This document shows, in pieces, positions 26,240-64,000 of a stretch of DNA of 64,000 nt (the first letter of the stretch is position 1; each line of letters starts with the position of its first letter). This DNA is from Sphagnum magellanicum (taxonomy: Eukaryota; Streptophyta; Sphagnopsida; Sphagnales; Sphagnaceae): the NCBI GenBank assembly GCA_021904315.1, contig CM038916.1, forward strand, positions 18,001,897 through 18,065,896, given 5' to 3'. The translations under genes were made by a program, and so were the position numbers. The notes beneath the pieces are model-generated. The model was not told the origin of the DNA, ran no database searches, and was given only the letters and a program-made list of their open reading frames with translations.

Positions 26240-29200
26240 CTAACTAGAATCTAGGATCTCAGACAGAGTTGGGTCACCTGCAGACATAGCTTTAATGATG
26301 TGGTAGAGCTCAAATTCACTGCTTGCCTTCCATGGATACATGATATGCCAGTTGGGTGTATAAATCAAAGCGGGGCCCTCATTCACTTCACTCTCAGAAA
26401 GGAAACGTGTATTATTGAAAGCATAAGTGTCAAAGTTTTCAGGATTCTCCATTGCCACAAAGAACAAAGGGAGCGCAAGGGCTCTGTTCAGCTTCTGCTT
26501 TCCAGCAAGTCCTGCAAGAGTGGAGAAGTCATCAATGTAGCGGCGGGGAACATAGTATACCTTTGAGGAGGACACCATGAAGTGATCATCATCCATTACA
26601 GTACGATAATTTGTGCGGTATTCCACTGGCAACCTGCTCACCAACTTCTTCACACCGTTCTTATGTCCTTTGCTGAGGTACCATGCTGAGGACTCGTCAT
26701 TGAAACTTGCTGTTTTCCAGGTTTCTTTTGCCTGCAAAAAAGTTGTCATCCATCTGAGATTGCATGGAACCAGCCTTATCTCATCAACTTTGGGGGTTTG
26801 GACTTTGGACCACAATGGAGGAGGGATTGCAATCACCTAAAATATTATCAAACCAGACAAGACCTTCATCCAAGGACTGGTGAACCCTTAGTAGGTGGCT
26901 ATGGTTCATGGATAAGCAATCCAATCAGTTCCAATAGATGGTTTTGAGTAAAATGATGACAGTTACAAGCACATAGAGGGGTTTGAACTCACAAATGTCT
27001 TGCAAGGTGCATATCAATAGGTTCTACTGCCTGGGATGCTCATTGCAACAATTAATTGTGCGATCATGGGTAGATGTTCATCAAGAAAAGGGTAAGTAAG
27101 AAAGCAAACCACATGGAGATTCCACAGCTTGGTTTTATCTGCTGATGTCAGATGCCAATAATTGAAAATGACTGCCTCATTCATTACCATAAAACCCTCT
27201 GCATTTGGGTACCTCTCAAATATCTTTGGCAGGACACTGCACACAAAGCAAGAAAGTACAGGTAAGGCCAGCCATGTGTGGAGTCCACTCCCAAGAACTC
27301 AAGCTCCTAAAATAGCCCTTAAGATCACTGGTTGTCTGGTTAATCCAGCTACAGTTGGCTTGGCTTGACTTGACTAACATGTACTTGGAGGGTTAGAATC
27401 AGTAACCACTTGCAAGGTGACCATGGACGTTTACCACTAGACTGTTTTTGGCTTGATGCTGCACAATCCACACCATTAGAAAGATGTCCAGAACCTTGCA
27501 GGAAGAGGAAGATTATGAGTCTTCAAGCCCAGGAAATGAAAACCCCACATTGAACTTTGTTGGTGACTTACTTGTAAGACATCCACATGTCAGTAGCCTC
27601 AACCCCAAGGGTTGCTTCCTTCTCTTGAGATAGCACTGCCACATGCTTGAAAAGACGACCATAAAGCAACCGCCATGCAAGCACTGTGTGGTTCAGTGGA
27701 TGTGAACACTCAAGAACAAGAACCATGTTCCCATAAAATCGCCTCAAATTCAGGAACTCAGTAAATTCACTCCCCATTGTTGTAGTATCTTCAATGCCCA
27801 AGTGTACTGATGGATATGCCTTAGGCATAAACTGTTTGTGTTCGTCAGGTGATGAGTAAACAGGGATTGTACCAAGCTCTACAGCCTGCAGTCGAGGTTG
27901 TCGCCAGCCAACTGACAGCAGATCCTTCAGCCAAGCTGCCACCAGCTCAACATCTTGAGCACCCCAGAAATGTTGTTCTGCCATCTCATGACTCAAATGA
28001 AGAATCTTCTCAAACAGGGTGCCCTTCTCAGATCTCCAGCTCACTAGGAACTTTATCAGCCGTGATGATTCTTGGTACAAGTCTGCTTCGTCCACAAAGG
28101 ATGAGGGCTCAGTGACATCAGCACGCTTGACTGTTGGAGGGTACACAACCATCATGCCCCCAATCTCCCACAAAATTCGCTGAGCCCAGTAACCTCTTAC
28201 AATGTCGGCAGCTTTTGGGGTCAAAGATACTGGAAGCAGCAATCCCCAAAAGCCTGCAGAATGAAAAAGGGTATTCAATGCATTGCATGGTGCCATTGTA
28301 CCATGAGGAAGAGCAACAGGGGGTGCAAGAGTATCAAACTCAATGTCAATAGCAACATCCTCTGCTCTCCGTGTGCTGTAAAAGATGGAGTCAACATCAG
28401 GTAGCCCATTTGCAAGTCCTTGCTGTATAATCTGGTGGCCTGGGAACACCTGAGTGTATGAAACATCAGGACTTATTTGCTGCACCATGTCCAGTGGAAG
28501 TCCCCGTGGCCAGACCGATCTTTGGCCAAAATGAACAAATGGATTTACCACACTCCTATTTTCCAGAGTGCGGTACTGCAGCAGCAAATCACGCCGGCTA
28601 TTTGGACCACGAAGCTCAATGTCAAAAACACGGCCAAGATCCCCACCCAGAATGGTTGCTTTCTCATCCGCATCATAAATTCTTGTTGCACCATGTTGGA
28701 TTGCAAACAAGTAGCCAACATTCTTCCGCAAGTAGGAATTGAATGGAAGGTATGCATTGATCCGGTACCCAAGCTCTGCTTGCTGATCAAAGGACAAAAA
28801 TAGTGCCCCCTCAACTTTCCAATCTGCTGAAGTCTCAGAGCCACCAACAGCCAGCAATTGCCAGCCCTCAATTTTTGCCAATGCTTGAAGCTCATGAGTT
28901 GGTGACCCCAATGCAGCAACAATGATCCATTTCTCCGTGTTGAATGCAGAGTAACGGCCCTTGTCCACCCGAGGACTAACACGATTCAGGTTCAAATCTG
29001 GGTACGGAATCCGCTTGAGCTGGTTGGCAACAGATTCCACACAAAGAATAGTATTTGTCCCACCTCTGTTTCTTGCAAGTATGAGCACCAATGCACCGAG
29101 GAAGATGAATGCAACAATCACCACTTTAGGCAGATTGTCCATCAAGTACCCACAAAATGAACCACCACCTGTGTTTGATGTGTACCTGTGTGATTTGCCT

Positions 29201-29730
29201 ACTGTTTTAGAGATGAGAAGAACAAGGCAAAGAATATGTAGAAGAAGAAGAATACCCATTTGCCTTTGTAGCACAACAATTGCATTTCCAAAGATAGACA
29301 GATGCTTGTTAAGACAACCAGAAGGGATGCTGCAAAGTGGTTCACGATTCTCCTTAAGGACTCTAAAGGCAGAATCTATTACGAAGCTGTTACGTTGCTG
29401 TGATAGATGTCACAGGTCAAGAGGAGAATCATCAGATCTGCTGGAAGAAATATTCTAAGCTAGTGTGAGAGGAGGGGGAAAAAAAAAGGCTCAGAGAGTA
29501 ATTTTGCAGTACCCCAAGGATTCAACACCAGAAGATCTGCCATCTGGGTACTGCTGCTGCCGCCGCCGCCGCTGCTGCTGGAGTGGGAAGAAGGTCTGGG
29601 ACTGTTGTTCCAACTCTTGTTGCTCCTCATCATCATTGGCCATAGCTGCTGCTTCCTCCTCCGCCTCCGAGACATTTCTGGAGCCGTTTCCCACCCATGC
29701 TGTTTTCCCGTTTGGTTGCTGGATCAGCAT
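26240..29730 (-). CDS. STELLO-type Golgi glycosyltransferase (DUF288 family), four exons
   Basis: Main exons on the minus strand are 29185 (or nearby)-27572, 27236-27110 and 26731 (or 26836)-26240. They carry family landmarks in order: FNTEKWIIVA, LGYRINAYLPF, VGYLFAIQHGATRIYDADEK, NPFVHFGQRSVWPRGLPLD, GLPDVDSIFY, GYWAQRILWEIGG, LIKFLVSWRSEK, WLKDLLSVGWRQPRL, LAWRLLYGRLFK, LPKIFERYPNAEGF, YYVPRRYIDDF and AGDPTL near the end. An upstream exon from ATG 29730 encodes MLIQQPNGKTAWVG, like the MLVQ start of Arabidopsis STELLO1, then acidic and Q/R-rich sequence. One membrane span follows at residues about 94-110 (VVIVAFIFLGALVLILA), giving a type II Golgi protein. The model is about 816 aa (851 with the alternative acceptor), against about 770 in Arabidopsis. 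STELLO proteins interact with cellulose synthase subunits and promote complex assembly in the Golgi. The exon 1/2 junction is uncertain: GG|GTACTG at 29513/29512 joined to CACACAG|G at 29185 keeps frame. Confidence 0.88.
29491..29730 (-). CDS. N-terminal exon region of the STELLO-like gene
   Basis: The 79-codon frame starts MLIQQPNGKTAW at an ATG (29730). It is rich in E, then Q and R (QQQRRRRQQQ, from CAG/CGG triplet runs at about 29551-29582), and ends in a stop at 29491. A donor inside it (CTTGGG|GTACTG at 29513, or TCTG|GTGTTG slightly earlier) would lead into the main exon. Family STELLO proteins start MLVQ and carry a short charged cytosolic tail before the membrane anchor, which fits. 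The first ATG of the main exon frame (29259, MGILLLL) encodes what looks like an intron polypyrimidine tract. Confidence 0.6.
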   Translation of the reverse strand: MLIQQPNGKTAWVGNGSRNVSEAEEEAAAMANDDEEQQELEQQSQTFFPLQQQRRRRQQQYPDGRSSGVESLGYCKITL

Positions 29731-47500: not shown

Positions 47501-50500
47501 AAGTAAGAACCCTTGAACCTTGGCAGCTTGCTGCATGCAAAAGATGTCATTGTAGGTTAAATGGTTGGAATTTTCCAAGGGTGTGGGTCTGAGAGCAAGG
47601 ATGTAAGTGATATTATTGTGGAGATGGAAGGAGGAGGTAACTTGAGTCAACCTGAGGTAGGAGTCAACCTCAAGTTACACAAGAGAGTCTCCTACCTCAA
47701 CTTGCAACATCTTGTGCTGAACTGAGAACATTTTATTACGGTTATTCAGGATATCATAGCAAGGTTCAAGGAACGGCGACCTAAGCATGCTATTAAGTGG
47801 ACTGACTTTCCAAGCAAAGTTGCAGTGCAAATGAATGACACACACCCTACACTTGCTATACCTGAGCTCATGCGCATACTCATGGATGAAGAGGGATTGG
47901 GCTGGGATGAAGCGTGGGCCATCACTGGCAGGTGTGCATCTTTCTTTCCCACAAATTTCTGATTTTACTGAGAGCAGTGGGTGCAGGAGACTGACAGAAC
48001 AGTCTGTTGCAAACCTACTGTGCCTAAGAAAGCTTTTGAGTTTGAATCATGGTACCCTGCTCCTTCATGTTTCCAGTTGTTGGAGCTCTGTAATCCATCT
48101 ATCCTGTAAGCTGAGGATACAGGAAAAATGTTTGTCCTCTAAGCTCTCTGCCTGAGGTATCTTAAGGTAGGATATATATTCTGTTTCTCTTGCTTGTGGC
48201 AAGATTCACAAGTCTGAAAAACACATTGGTTGTGACAGCACTGTGGCATACACAAATCATACAGTACTACCAGAGGCTCTGGAAAAATGGTCACAGGTTG
48301 TCATGGCCAAGCTGCTCCCAAGACACATGGAGATTATAGCAGAGATTGATAAGCAGGTGTGGTCTCCTAAATCTCTTGTCTATTTGCTTCTCTTGCTGCT
48401 GCTAGAGCAAAAGGTTTCAATAGCACATGTGTAGAAACTCCTTTACGGGGGTTTGCTCTCAGTGCTCAGACTCTTTACTAAACAACAACTTACTTGAGTG
48501 GTACTTCAGAGGACCCCAAAGTGAGTCATCCTCCTTTCAGATCACTTCATCTTACCACATGAACAATTATTTGTAGATTCAGTTACTTTGATCTCTGTTG
48601 ACATTGAAGTTACCAACTAGCATTGGGATCTTGTCTACATGAAGTTCAAGTTGGGTAATTTCCCTTACTACAATACTCATGGCATGATAACTCTTAAAAT
48701 GTCTGCAAAACTTCAATTTCACTTTGATACATTGCTCAAATGTTGTCTTTGTGTTGCAGTTTTGCCAAATGGTGAAGAGCAGTCGACCTGACCTAGTAAG
48801 CAAGCTTGAGCAAATGCGAGTTCTGGATTCTAATCCTCATAAGCCAGTTGTTCGCATGGCTCACTTGTGTGTTGTGTCCTCTCATACTGTAGGTTCTACT
48901 ACCCAGAGCTCTCCTTCACGATTTGCTTATTTTTCAGTTAACTGTGGCAGTATTCTTGACATTTTGTGTCATGTGATAGAACCCAGGTGTATCGAAATGT
49001 TTTATTGAGGCTATTTAAATGGGAGCCTATACTAAGCAAGAAGAATGTTCCTGTTGGGATGGTGTCATAGGTCAATGGTGTGGCGGAGCTGCACAGTGAC
49101 ATCTTGAAGAGGGAGCTGTTTTCAGATTTCTGCTCCTTGTGGCCCAATAAGTTCCAAAATAAGACAAATGGTGTGACTCCACGTCGGTGGCTGTGCTTCT
49201 GCAGCCCAGAACTAAGTGCAATCATCACGAAATGGCTTCAAACTGATAAATGGGTTACAAATCTTGATCTTCTAGCTGGCCTCCGTCAGGTATGCAAAGT
49301 TTCTAGATCTCTCTCCCCATGCCACCCACTTGCTAAACTTCTTCTCACTTAACTTTCGTGCCAATTTTGCAGTTTGCAGATGATGAACAGCTACATAAGG
49401 AATGGGAGGCAGCAAAGTTTGCAAACAAAGTTCGTCTAGCAGAATACCTGTTGAAGGTGACAGGTGTAAAAGTGGACCCAACATCTCTGTTTGATACACA
49501 GGTCAAACGAATCCATGAGTATAAGCGGCAGTTTTTGAACATACTGGGTGTAATTTACCGCTACAAGAAGATGAAGGTACTGCCAGAGCTCTCTGTTTCT
49601 CTATTCCATTAAAATCTAACTTGAGAGAGACATCATAGAAGATCTTGGACAGCAAAAGGTGGAAGACATCTCTGCCTCTCAATGAAGGCGTAAATTTTAT
49701 GGAGTAAGCCCACCTGCCAGTAAAATCATTTGATACATGACTGCAAGGACCACTAATGTGAGAGGTAGTTGTCAAAGTTGTAATTGTTTACAATACTCTC
49801 ACAATAATTTGGATAAGAATACATGACTCCATTTATAGGTCAGAGTTAATTTCCCTTGTTTACTAACCTCACAATGTGTTCTTTTATTCTAAATGGACCT
49901 TTGTTATTCCATCATCATGGTTATACACATTTGTATATGATGGAAAGGAGAAATATGCTACTCAAACTGGGAAAGCTGTTGCATGACAGGAGATGGGCCC
50001 TGAGGAGAGGAAGAGGGTGGTGCCTCGAGTTGTCATGTTTGGTGGTAAGGCATTTGCCACATATGCCCAGGCCAAGCGAATTGTGAAACTTGTGACAGAT
50101 GTTGGTTCTGTTGTCAACAATGATCCAGACATTGGCAACCTTCTCAAGGTTATCATTCCACAAGCCCTGAAACTGATAAGTCTGTCTTTGACCATTGACC
50201 CTCTCTCCCTATCCTGGTGTCAGCTTCCAATGTTCCCAATGGTTTGAGGAGCAGAGCCTTTCTAGATTGCCAGACTGGTGCGCATGTGGAAATCTCCTTC
50301 CATCCAATTGATTTTTGTTATCAGGAGTACTCCCTTCACCAATTGAAACTCCCACTCTTAAGTTCTGGAAGATCTGATTAGGGCACAGGTTTAGGACATT
50401 TACCCAAATGTCCATGGAGTACATATGTTTTGTTTTAACATCCTGCATCTTGTGTGTATTAGCAAACTACCTGACCATTCTTTTCTCTTTGCAGGTGGTG

Positions 50501-51503
50501 TTTGTCCCCAACTACAATGTAACAGCAGCAGAGCTCATAATTCCAGCCAGTGAATTGTCACAGCATATCAGTACTGCAGGCATGGAGGCCAGTGGCACAA
50601 GCAACATGAAGTTTGCACTCAATGGATGTCTGATCATTGGTACTCTTGATGGTGCAAATGTTGAGATCCGTGAGGAAATTGGCAATCAAAACTTCTTCCT
50701 GTTTGGGGTGCAAGCAGATGATGTGCCTCGCTGCCGAGAGGAGAGAATGGCTGGACATGTATGTTCTATCTCTTTTCTCCCTTCAGTTCAGAGATGGCAA
50801 GCGATGCTAGTTTTTGGAGCAGTGCTTGAGAAAAATTCTTGGACATGCTTTTTCACTCAGCTCGTATTGATCACAACTGTCCAAATTATAGTGTACCAAG
50901 TTCAGTCCAAAGCTTTCTGACAATATTTCTTTTGTGACCTGGAACCTTGTACATGAATTGGCAGTTTACTCCAGATCCTCGATTTGAGGAGGCCAAACAG
51001 ATGATCAGGAGCAAGACTTTTGGTGATTTTGACTATGAACCTTTGTTAGATTCACTGGAGGGTAACAGTGGGTATGGCCGTGGAGATTACTTCCTGGTTG
51101 GAGTAGACTTCCCTTCCTATATTGAAGCTCAAAAGGAGATTGATATTGCATATAAGTACATCTCTCACCCTTCATTTGGCTAGTGTTCCTAATGAAATAT
51201 GCCTTCGAAAACCCATGCATTCTCTTTATCTCAGTTTTCAGAAGACACTCTTACCCCAAAGTTTACAGAAACAGCTTAAATCTCCTCTCCGAATTGTGAC
51301 ACTTCTAAGTTGCACTTGGGACTCATCTGTTCTTGACAGAATTTCTTATGTGTCTTGTTTTGTTGTTTGTGAGCAGGGACAGGAGACGTTGGAACCACAG
51401 CAGCATTCTGAGCACCGCTGGTTCTGGGAAATTCAGCAGTGACCGCACTATTTCACAATATGCTACTGACATTTGGAACATCCAGGAATGCCGAGTGCCA
51501 TAA
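44590..51503 (+). CDS. alpha-glucan phosphorylase, cytosolic type, 15 coding exons
   Basis: Catalyses reversible phosphorolysis of alpha-1,4-glucan to glucose 1-phosphate, with pyridoxal phosphate (GT35 family). Exons: 44590-44850, 45335-45514, 45869-46045, 46408-46493, 46616-46805, 47143-47235, 47750-47931, 48239-48356, 48760-48888, 49071-49289, 49373-49576, 49990-50148, 50495-50758, 50965-51155 and 51377-51503. All are joined by GT..AG borders in compatible phase, giving 859 aa. Landmarks in order: [101 protein letters not shown], and the cofactor site [14 protein letters not shown] with Lys at residue about 705. The ~80-residue insertion of plastid isoforms, expected near residue 455, is absent. 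The N-terminus lacks an obvious transit peptide. Both facts point to the cytosolic enzyme acting on maltose-derived heteroglycan. Length fits the family (about 840). No disruption seen. Confidence 0.96.
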
Positions 51504-57315: not shown

Positions 57316-57796
57316 TCAAGGATACCAAACCTGTGTACTGTTGCTGTTATGAAAAGGGTTTGGTCCAGTAGGTACCAATCTATCTGTCTCAAACACTGTC
57401 ACTGACCTTCGAGGAGGCAACCGGTATTTCAGTAGACTTGAATCCTTTTGTCTGGTCCTGCTGCTGCTGCTGAGGTTTTCTAAGAGCAGCTTGGGGCTTG
57501 ATCTGTGATGTCTATCCTGCCTAGTAGTACTAACCACCTGTTGCTTATGCTGCTGCCGCCATTGCTCTGAACCTTGATCTACACTATTTGTTGTTTCACA
57601 AGTACTCACCTGCACTAGCAAACAAAAATAGCATCTGCGTCAATGATCAATCCATGAGCAACTGCATTGGTTGGGTATGAAAGATGACAAAAAAACATTT
57701 GCAACAGTTCAGATTCAGGACTGATATACATATATATATAACTCTGCGCCAGATCGATTCTCAACTTTTAGTTGCTGCAAAGATGCATTTTGATCT

Positions 57797-57828
<32 letters not shown>

Positions 57829-58258
57829 ATTTCAACTATTGATCGAACTGCAGATTTGTAAGTCGCTGAATTCATCACCTGATTAGCTGCAATGCTGCTG
57901 CTGCTGCTGGCAAGCAGCAGCTCCTGTTGGTAAAGTGGCAGCAGCTTTCGCACAACAGACGTAGTTGAAGCAGCGGATGCCAATTGATCTCTGCTGGGTC
58001 TGTGGTGATGGTGTCCTGAAAACAATGCAGTTATCACGAGCATCGAGATTTATCAGACAATTGAAGCAGCAGCTGGTCTTGAGTGTTCATGACTCATCAT
58101 TGCTAAGAAAGGAGGAACTGCACGAATGCAGTCAGGAGTCTCGTCAGTCTCGTACCTGGTCCTCGGAAAACGTCGGATTCTTCCCTGAATGCAACAAGAG
58201 CTACGAACGTCGTAAGTGCCATCAAAAGCGATGCAAAACTCCAACAAAAATTCGCCAT
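57316..58258 (-). CDS. CLE-family signalling peptide precursor, three exons
   Basis: Exons on the minus strand are 58258-58156 (34 codons plus 1 base), 58015-57879 and 57609-57316. Introns of 140 and 269 bp have clean borders (CCAG|GTACGA...TTTTCAG|GA; AATCAG|GTGATG...AGTGCAG|GTG) in matching phases 1 and 0. The product is 177 aa. Residues 1-24 (MANFCWSFASLLMALTTFVA, then LVAF) form a signal peptide. A variable, basic, S/Q-rich middle follows. RLVPTGPNPFHN at residues 157-168 is a 12-residue CLE motif, followed by nine residues to the stop. CLE peptides are cut out, often hydroxylated on proline, and sensed outside the cell by LRR receptor kinases such as CLV1. In mosses they orient stem-cell divisions. 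The VPTGPNP core is close to moss CLEs as I remember them; Phe replaces the usual Leu or Ile before His. ATG has G at +4. An intron holds a long (CTT)n run. Confidence 0.88.
57346..57381 (-). other. predicted mature CLE dodecapeptide
   Basis: Encodes RLVPTGPNPFHN. It matches the CLE consensus: basic first residue, P at 4 and 9, invariant G6, P7, and H11-N12. Position 10 is Phe, uncommon at a site usually L, I or Q. Prolines 4 and 7 are the usual hydroxylation sites in the family. Flanks are ETD before and SNST after. Confidence 0.88.
57798..57830 (-). repeat. (CTT)n microsatellite in the second CLE intron
   Basis: About ten AAG units on the + strand, CTT on the gene's sense strand, near the acceptor side of the intron. 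Confidence 0.85.
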
Positions 58259-59510
58259 GCCCACCACTACCACCACCACCCCGGAAGCCCAACAGCTTTC
58301 CCCCCGACGTCACAGTCTAGGTACTCTCGCGGTCAATGTCGTTCAAAGAATATGTATATATGTGTGCACCTTACTCGTCAAGCTCCGGGGCACGATTCCC
58401 AGCAATTAGCGCATGTACTACAGTGCATCATGTCACAGTTCAAGGTCTGCCTTCGACCGAAGAGATAGCAGAAAAATGCTGCAGTAAACATCATCTGCAA
58501 CTCGCGGGAGACCAGACCATCAGCTACTGAGGGCGCGTACTACATTGCACAGTCAGAATCCTCCTCACGCCAGCTGCTAGCTGCTGCTGCTGATTCTTTC
58601 TTTGCTAGGCTGCACTGGAATTGAGAGATCGCATCAGCATCGTAACTGCATAACATGCTGACAATCTATGGGATGCTAGCTCATGGTCCCGCGGGATTTC
58701 GTTCAGCAACAGCAGTTGCACATTCTAACCTAAAGCTTCTTCAGTTCTTATTTCCTCGAGGAATTGGGTCTGTGCAGGAATTGAATACGGAGCTAGTCGT
58801 ATAAGGACGAGCCTAATCTGCACTTGGGTCGGAGAATAATTTGGTTTGTTCACCATCAACATCGAGTCCATCAGCTCCACCGCGCTGCAACGTCGGCGAC
58901 AGGGTCGAAGTGCATGGGCTCCGATGATCATCAAGAGTAGCACTGGCTCGTGATCATACGATCACATACACTACCTTATACAACACTAGGAAATCAAGCA
59001 AGCATAAAATGTGGGTAGATCAACATGCATGCAAGAACTAGAGCTACATTGAGCTGAGAGAGTAGTCGACACAGGTCAGAGACAAGTTGCAGGCCGGCTC
59101 CTCCAACTCCCAAGACTTTGCAGCTCAACGATTACACCACGAAGCTATCTTTGGGCATTGACACTGCGAGTAGCTGTGCAATGAAAGAAGACGACGAAGA
59201 AGAAGAAATCTAGAAGGTGGGAAATAGCCAGGGGTGCAGGAAGGAGGCTTGCAAACGGTCAGGAAACTTATAGCTCACCGAGTGTTGAATTGAGATACAA
59301 CAAAATTAGCCCCTCTTTCGCCTGCATACAAGATCGTTTCTCAACTCCAATTCAGCGATCCGGAAATCTGTGGAAAGCGCAACCGTCTTCACAAAATCGT
59401 AAGCGCGCGCTCGATGGCGTGACAGACTCGAGCAGAAGACGAAGAGATGGCGATGCGGGACACGCAATGGAATGCGCAACGCTGCTAGCGAACAAAGGAG
59501 CTTTTGTGCG
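58259..59510 (-). promoter_or_regulatory. 5' leader and promoter region of the CLE gene (presumed)
   Basis: More balanced composition than the DNA on either side, with several CAG/CTG triplet runs and no convincing coding frame. Plus-strand frames (57965-58468, 59290-59538) are antisense or unsupported. Transcription start not determined. Confidence 0.35.
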
Positions 59511-60124
59511 GGTTCTGGACCTTTTCACACTGTACTAGAGATTTAAAAAACCCTTTTTCTTTTTCCCACCTGGAGCTTTTCGCACAAGTTTTGGGATGAA
59601 AACGTTTTTCACCTCGAGCTTTTCACACAAGTTTTAGGGTTTTAAAAAGTAAAAAGACGTACTTTTCACCTGGAGCTTTCCACACCTGTGGGGGGTAGTA
59701 AAACAACCGTTTTTCACCTGGGGCTTTTCACACTTGTGGGGGTAGTAAAAAACCATTTTTCACCTGAGCCTTTTCACACTTGTGGGGGTAGTAAAAAACC
59801 GTTTTCACCTGAGGGCTTTTCACACTTGTGGGGGTAATAAAACACCATTTTTCACTTGAGCCTTTTCACACTTGTGGGGGTAGTAAAAAACCGTTTTCAC
59901 CTGAGGGCTTTTCACACTTATGGCCGGGGGGGGGGGGGTAAAAACCCTTTTTTCACCTGGGACTTTTTCACACTTGTGGAGGTAAGAAATTGTTTTTTCA
60001 TCTGGAGCTTTTACTATTGTGGAGGTTGTTATAAAAGCCTTTTTTCACGTGGGGTTTTTCACACTTGTGTAGGTAAGATTCTTTTTTTTCACTTGGACCT
60101 TTTCACACTATTGTTGGGGGACTT
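59511..60124 (+). repeat. minisatellite array, unit about 46 bp, partly ordered as 92-bp dimers
   Basis: About twelve units on the pattern TTTTCACCTG(G)AGCTTTTC, ACACTTGTGGGGGTAGTAAA, AAACC. In the centre (59761-59920) two unit types alternate, CACCTGAGCC and CACCTGAGGGC, giving an exact 92-bp step (59761 to 59853). Outer units are more diverged (CACAAGTTTTGGG on the left, TTGTGTAGG on the right). Plus-strand frames across it (59856-60134) are repeat translations. Confidence 0.9.
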
Positions 60125-62900: not shown

Positions 62901-64000
62901 GTTTTTTTTTTTTTAAATTTTTTTTTACAGCAACATTCTATATTTTTGGGTACTTACTTGAACCATGTATAGATATCCAACCATTTTTTTCTTAAGTTTT
63001 GGGATCAATAATGATCTGATATTATAACCTAATTGTTTGGTATTGAATCATCAAAAATCTTGATTATTACAAAAAAAATATTGATAACCTAATTAGAGCA
63101 TAAAAAAATCATTATTGATAAACCTAACCACCATACACAAAAAAATTATAAATAAACCAGAGCTATGCCCGGTATCAACACTGGAAGGACACTACGAGGC
63201 TGTGTTTTGGTTTTTGGTTTTGTGGTTTTGAAACTTTGAAGATTTTATTTATTTTTTTTGAAAAATAGCAGTAATTTTTTTATTCGAATTTAGGCGAAAA
63301 TAAAGACAATTTTCAAAGATGATATTATAATAGTAGCTTAAGGGATTTTGGCCCCTAAGTAATAAATAATAGGTCTATTTATTTTTATATGAGGGTTTTT
63401 GAAAGATGATATTTTGGCTCATGTTGAAACTTGAGATTAGTTATAATAGAGTTATGATACCTTGAAGGATTTTTTGTTCCTTTTTAGAGGATTTTTTTTC
63501 TAAAGATTAATTATTTTTACATGGTGAAATATTTGAATTTCCACCTAAACCCTAAACCCTAAACACTAACCACATTACCTAATGGGAACCTAACCAAAAT
63601 TTAATCAGACACTAATCAGAGTTCTCTGACCCACTAATCAGGAATTAAATCAAATTAGTTCTAGTGCAAACACCCAAATTCCAAAACTCCCCCATCAATC
63701 CAAAACCCACTCTTTATTTTTTAAGGGGCGAAATTTCACCAAATATCCAGATTTTTTAATATAAAAAAATTGTTTTTTGTAGACATCTTGGACGGTTTAA
63801 AATCAGTGTGTTGGGATAGATACCCATCGGTTATCAACCTGAGTATGTGTTGTTGATTCTTTCTTTCATGAAAATGTGTTGTTGATCCTTTGAGGTTTTT
63901 GAAATAACCATGACATATGGTTCTTTGATTTTATTTTATTTTACAAAAACCCCAAGGTTTGTGTTTGTGATATTTAAAGAACCGAAACCAACAAGCTCTT
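62901..64000. other. AT-rich intergenic DNA to window end
   Basis: No gene recognised. A short telomere-like run, about three CCCTAAA units, lies at 63544-63566. Confidence 0.5.

Follow-up and report, generated by a model that had tools for sequence, protein, structure and literature searches.

Among described CLE (CLV3/ESR-related) genes, PpCLE5 and PpCLE6 of Physcomitrium, with the peptide RLVPTGPNPLHN, are described as CLV3-like (PMC6089843, PMC12138186). The nine Physcomitrium CLE peptides given in PMC12138186 all have leucine at position 10 and none has phenylalanine. The Arabidopsis genes CLV3 and CLE40 contain two introns and three exons (PMC8594942, PMC10436580, PMC5570945), and the peptide TDIF has been reported as HEV-Hyp-SG-Hyp-NPISN (PMC8076897). 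According to one family survey, about 90% of CLE precursors are 50-150 residues long, a tail of 0-2 residues is present in about two thirds, CLE motifs very rarely contain aromatic residues such as phenylalanine, and 11 CLE genes were counted in Sphagnum fallax (PMC7552357).

We analysed a window of 64,000 nucleotides of Sphagnum magellanicum DNA, the whole stretch lying on contig C10 of the host assembly at 18.00-18.07 Mb. On its minus strand lies a gene, here called L006, with its ATG at 58258 and the end of its stop codon at 57316. Two introns are predicted for it from the DNA, as for its paralogs L007, L003 and L008, which in intron number, the only feature compared, resembles CLV3 and CLE40. 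The peptide sequences of CLV3 and CLE40 differ from that of L006. The predicted L006 peptide has R1 and H11, in contrast to the H1 and S11 of TDIF-type peptides (CLE41/44). In a comparison limited to the peptides, 11 of its 12 residues are the same as in PpCLE5/PpCLE6, with F instead of L at position 10 (PMC12138186); this agrees with an earlier sequence-only reading of the window, in which the core was said to resemble moss CLEs. A precursor of 177 residues with a nine-residue tail sets L006 apart from CLE precursors as generally described in the survey, and an ortholog is probably among the 11 genes counted (PMC7552357) in S. fallax, a member of the same genus. That L006 is an additional moss CLE gene, in a family whose biology is otherwise already known, is well supported.

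The sequence-only reading had given no strand; all parts of the gene were located on the minus strand:

58156..58258 (-): coding portion of exon 1, 103 nt; starts with the ATG, contains a putative hydrophobic signal sequence and finishes in phase 1
58016..58155 (-): intron 1, 140 nt; donor CAG/GTACGA, acceptor TTTTCAG/GACACC before 58015
57879..58015 (-): exon 2, 137 nt; variable spacer
57610..57878 (-): intron 2, 269 nt, phase 0; donor CAG/GTGATG, acceptor TGCAG/GTGAGT before 57609
57316..57609 (-): exon 3, 294 nt including the stop; spacer, YRLPPRR block, CLE motif and tail SNSTQVWYP
57346..57381 (-): CLE motif RLVPTGPNPFHN, found by pattern match; the L007 peptide is identical
57319..57345 (-): C-terminal tail; from the paralog alignment, an N-x-S/T sequon starts two residues past the CLE motif

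The CLE motif and its phenylalanine

The CLE pattern matched once in the six frames of the window, against no match in 100 first-order Markov shuffles. For the host assembly (438,994,042 bases, 31 contigs), a 24-residue motif query gave no match although the motif is present, and pattern searches were therefore used. The degenerate pattern P-x-G-P-[ND]-P-x-H-[NH], with position 5 limited by the allowed codons, matched nine loci, each of which encodes a CLE motif, while a reversed control pattern matched none. Since the survey counted 11 CLE genes in S. fallax (PMC7552357), the count of nine may miss some. The peptides are distributed over the loci as follows:

RLVPTGPNPFHN: L006 (window gene) and L007, tailed
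RLVPTGPNPLHN: L002, tailed
RMVPTGPNPLHN: L003, tailed
RTVPTGPNPLHN: L004, tailed
RMVPTGPNPVHN: L008, tailed, V at position 10
RLIPTGPDPLHN: L001, L005 and L009, without a C-terminal tail, ending at the motif

L001, L005 and L009, which carry D at position 8, make up another CLE class in Sphagnum. Judged by eye they are apparently intronless, because one long open frame also holds an upstream Met and a hydrophobic stretch. A genome pattern with S, T or A at position 7 gave no match, and one also allowing S or G at position 11 gave two, both in non-CLE proteins. These two of 11 pattern hits, L018 and L019 (PTGPNPFGN), were dropped as extra CLEs with phenylalanine at position 10 (F10) since they sit in NPF-repeat proteins, which we take to resemble clathrin adaptors. 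In viral contigs, 14 stretches fitted a pattern and none was confirmed.

F10 occurs at two of the nine Sphagnum loci, L006 and L007. As far as the comparison reaches, the phenylalanine that the sequence-only reading called unusual is so, being absent from the nine Physcomitrium peptides given in PMC12138186, yet it is common to paralog L007. Neither RLVPTGPNPFHN nor GPNPFH, GPNPFS or GPDPFH was found in the main texts of a collection of openly licensed papers. We consider it somewhat probable that F10 is functionally neutral, the peptide acting like the moss peptides with L10: V10 occurs at another Sphagnum locus, L008, and substitution at site 10 of TDIF is reported in the survey to have very little impact on activity (PMC7552357). 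On the other side, phenylalanine is scarce in CLE motifs, both L006 and L007 retain F10 despite their synonymous divergence, and the same source names site 10 of TDIF as important for specific binding to the receptor TDR/PXY, from which an effect of F10 on receptors appears possible (PMC7552357). That F10 matters for receptor choice, which the sequence-only reading offered as a possibility, is a guess.

Predicted splicing of the precursor

The exons of L006 lie in three different frames and are joined in phases 1 and 0. The joined product has 177 residues with RLVPTGPNPFHN at residues 157-168, placing the 12-residue motif near the C-terminus as in the CLE family, and the nine-residue tail follows. 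The sequence-only reading had proposed these same elements, namely three exons in separate frames (58258-58156, 58015-57879 and 57609-57316) joined in matching phase into a 177-residue precursor with the CLE motif nine residues from the end, and they were recovered in the joined sequence. Its further statement that no single frame reveals the gene stands for motif and putative signal sequence combined, which share no frame, but the motif alone is visible in a 107-aa ORF.

Models leading from the start codon to the CLE motif via positively scoring splice sites were ranked with approximate plant consensus weights. The two-intron model came first among the 14 obtained, with a score of 19.4 versus 15.5 for the runner-up. 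When everything except the CLE region and the first 72 nt was shuffled, none of 300 shuffles reached 19.4; 267 yielded no model at all, and phases 1/0 were on top in two of the 33 that did. For the putative signal peptide, which the sequence-only reading had placed at residues 1-24, the measure used was hydropathy: the best 15-residue mean is 2.29 at residues 10-24, and beyond residue 40 no mean exceeds 0.97. No basic residue is found in the stretch that precedes this hydrophobic core. In L007 several basic residues follow the core, and a membrane anchor would fit there too.

The six tailed genes were modelled singly, without alignment and with start codons chosen by hand. In four of them (L006, L007, L003 and L008) the top model had two introns in phases 1/0 and a second exon of 116-164 nt, with margins over the next model of 3.9, 4.5, 0.7 and 2.3, respectively; the margin of L003 is thin (15.7 vs 15.0), and its runner-up has the same phases. 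The homologous exons 1 and 2 of L007 measure 88 nt (phase 1) and 116 nt. For L004 the modelling gave a single intron, in phase 1 and scoring low, and this one-intron model was used. For L002 a homology-based model, in which intron 1 is apparently absent, differs from the automatic top splice model and was used for Ka/Ks, codon counts and trees. Y-x-L-P-x-R-x-V ahead of the CLE motif and the final P align in all six tailed paralogs, and the N-x-S/T sequon after the motif was seen by eye in five, all except L004.

Searches of Pfam with two single-frame ORFs gave no match, and the joined L006 and L007 precursors fell into no recognised Pfam family. A sub-threshold DUF2528 match (E 0.24, L006 only) was taken as chance. 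PDB sequences held no relative, with one chance match (E 1.1), and the window gave no Rfam hit at gathering thresholds.

L006 is very probably a genuine three-exon CLE precursor gene, and it is the comparison with its paralogs that decides this. It is rather unlikely that it is a CLE gene whose main transcript uses other junctions. One such model, with the acceptor at 57516, gives a 146-aa precursor with the same peptide and scores 15.5 vs 19.4. Another would use a decoy acceptor in intron 2, before 57794 (-), which has the highest score of all 86 acceptors (5.82) and, read by eye, runs into a stop ahead of the CLE motif, giving a truncated protein without it. Against these alternatives, the start of exon 3 is common to L006, L007 and L002 (VSTCETTNSV, AITSETNGSV and VITSETTNSV, respectively), and for this reason the 57609 acceptor is the homologous one. 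Unproductive splicing to a truncated product at the decoy is possible alongside the three-exon model. A CTT repeat in intron 2 (AAG on the plus strand, 57799-57829) adjoins the decoy acceptor.

Codon-level change and the leader

L006 and L007 were compared with codon counts guided by protein alignments, which favour synonymous change. Over the whole precursor Ka was 0.33 and Ks 0.67 (Ka/Ks 0.49), with pS 0.46 and pN 0.26 (Fisher p 3e-4). Over the last 37 residues the values were pS 0.42 and pN 0.05 (Fisher p 5e-5). Taken alone, exon 1 (p 0.35), exon 2 (p 0.054) and residues 81-140 (p 0.21) were not significant. The spacer diverges, with pN 0.41 in exon 2 and 0.37 in residues 81-140 versus 0.00 in the CLE motif, which is the combination of diverging spacer and conserved motif that marks the CLE family. 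The counts indicate that the C-terminal part of L006 evolves as coding sequence. Since L007 encodes the identical peptide with five synonymous and no nonsynonymous changes in the 12 CLE codons, L006 looks real and constrained. Between L006 and L002 the CLE motif shows six synonymous and two nonsynonymous changes; the exon-2 count for this pair was left out as unreliable, synonymous changes exceeding sites.

The C-terminal block groups L006 and L007 weakly as sisters (80/65), and the full precursor leaves the grouping open. Ks is lower between L007 and L002 (0.57) than between L006 and L007. On these sequences F10, present in two of the three members of the L006/L007/L002 subgroup, arose within that subgroup or was kept by it; a single gain in an L006/L007 ancestor is uncertain because of the weak tree support and the lower L007-L002 Ks.

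The leader of L006 contains one candidate element:

58378..58494 (-): possible upstream ORF, 38 aa (MMFTAAFFCYLFGRRQTLNC...), similar in its N-terminal portion to ORFs that precede L007 and L002

The resemblance covers the first 25 residues. A profile built from the three upstream ORFs recovers its own three by construction, and nothing else in the nine CLE regions rose above threshold (next best E 0.19). Gaps between L006 and L007 measure 3, 3 and 6 nt over the opening portion, after which one of 2 nt puts the end in another frame. Third positions are not enriched for changes, either between L006 and L007 (7, 12 and 11 of 31 at positions 1, 2 and 3) or, in a poor DNA alignment, between L007 and L002 (16, 19 and 20 of 33). 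Protein-guided counts show a synonymous excess, but this type of alignment favours that outcome. With these contrary results, the upstream ORF in the L006 leader is suggestive and no more than a lead. A tandem repeat array with 46/92-bp units lies at 59663-59923, some 1.4 kb upstream of the L006 ATG.

That L006 is a degenerating copy with a transcript or precursor that has ceased to function, as its several paralogs, its fast-evolving spacer and the loss of frame near the end of the possible upstream ORF relative to L007 might suggest, is extremely unlikely given that its open frame, all four splice borders and the amino acids of the CLE codons have been kept.

The window was also compared with the 9 kb surrounding every one of the eight other loci. 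Near L007, the gene itself matched and so did a stretch at 63330-63543, which looks repetitive because it was also matched near L004, L008 and L009. Elsewhere in the window, a STELLO-type glycosyltransferase ORF lies at 27568-29409 (-), and a 95% identical match to it, with two TGA codons read through, is found towards the opposite end of that contig (C10:547501-549324). An ORF with a carbohydrate phosphorylase exon lies at 50378-50920 (+). Contig C11, which carries L007, is absent from the contigs of the matches listed for the STELLO ORF (C10, C12, C9 and C6) and for the phosphorylase exon (C9 and C2).

Proposed function and its meaning

We regard it as highly probable that L006 is a functional peat-moss CLE gene whose product would be spliced, secreted, processed to RLVPTGPNPFHN and perceived by a receptor, tuning division. 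The gene structure in the DNA, the paralogs and the codon-level constraint at the C-terminus are observed; by analogy with known CLE systems, we infer that L006 would be transcribed and how its product would be secreted, processed, modified, perceived and put to use. The three exons would be spliced to give the 177-aa prepropeptide, whose N-terminus may direct the precursor into the secretory pathway. Its variable spacer would be discarded, and proteases cutting before Arg157 and after Asn168 would release RLVPTGPNPFHN as a 12-13-mer, probably proline-hydroxylated and arabinosylated. The peptide would act outside the cell on receptor kinases of the CLV1/BAM or RPK2 type, and its signalling may tune cell proliferation and the orientation of division.

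A bolder proposal has three parts: the two F10 genes would form a Sphagnum ligand subclass with its own receptor preference, a conserved upstream ORF peptide would gate translation, and the phase 1/0 three-exon structure would be an ancestral CLV3-type one predating the split of mosses and vascular plants. It is very unlikely that all three hold together.

For Sphagnum, a three-exon design in phases 1/0 is predicted for four CLE genes, and the exons of a moss CLE gene such as L006 could be missed by automated annotation. In L006, moreover, F naturally replaces L at a CLE position that is reported in the survey to affect specific receptor binding in TDIF (PMC7552357), which makes a peptide-swap test simple.
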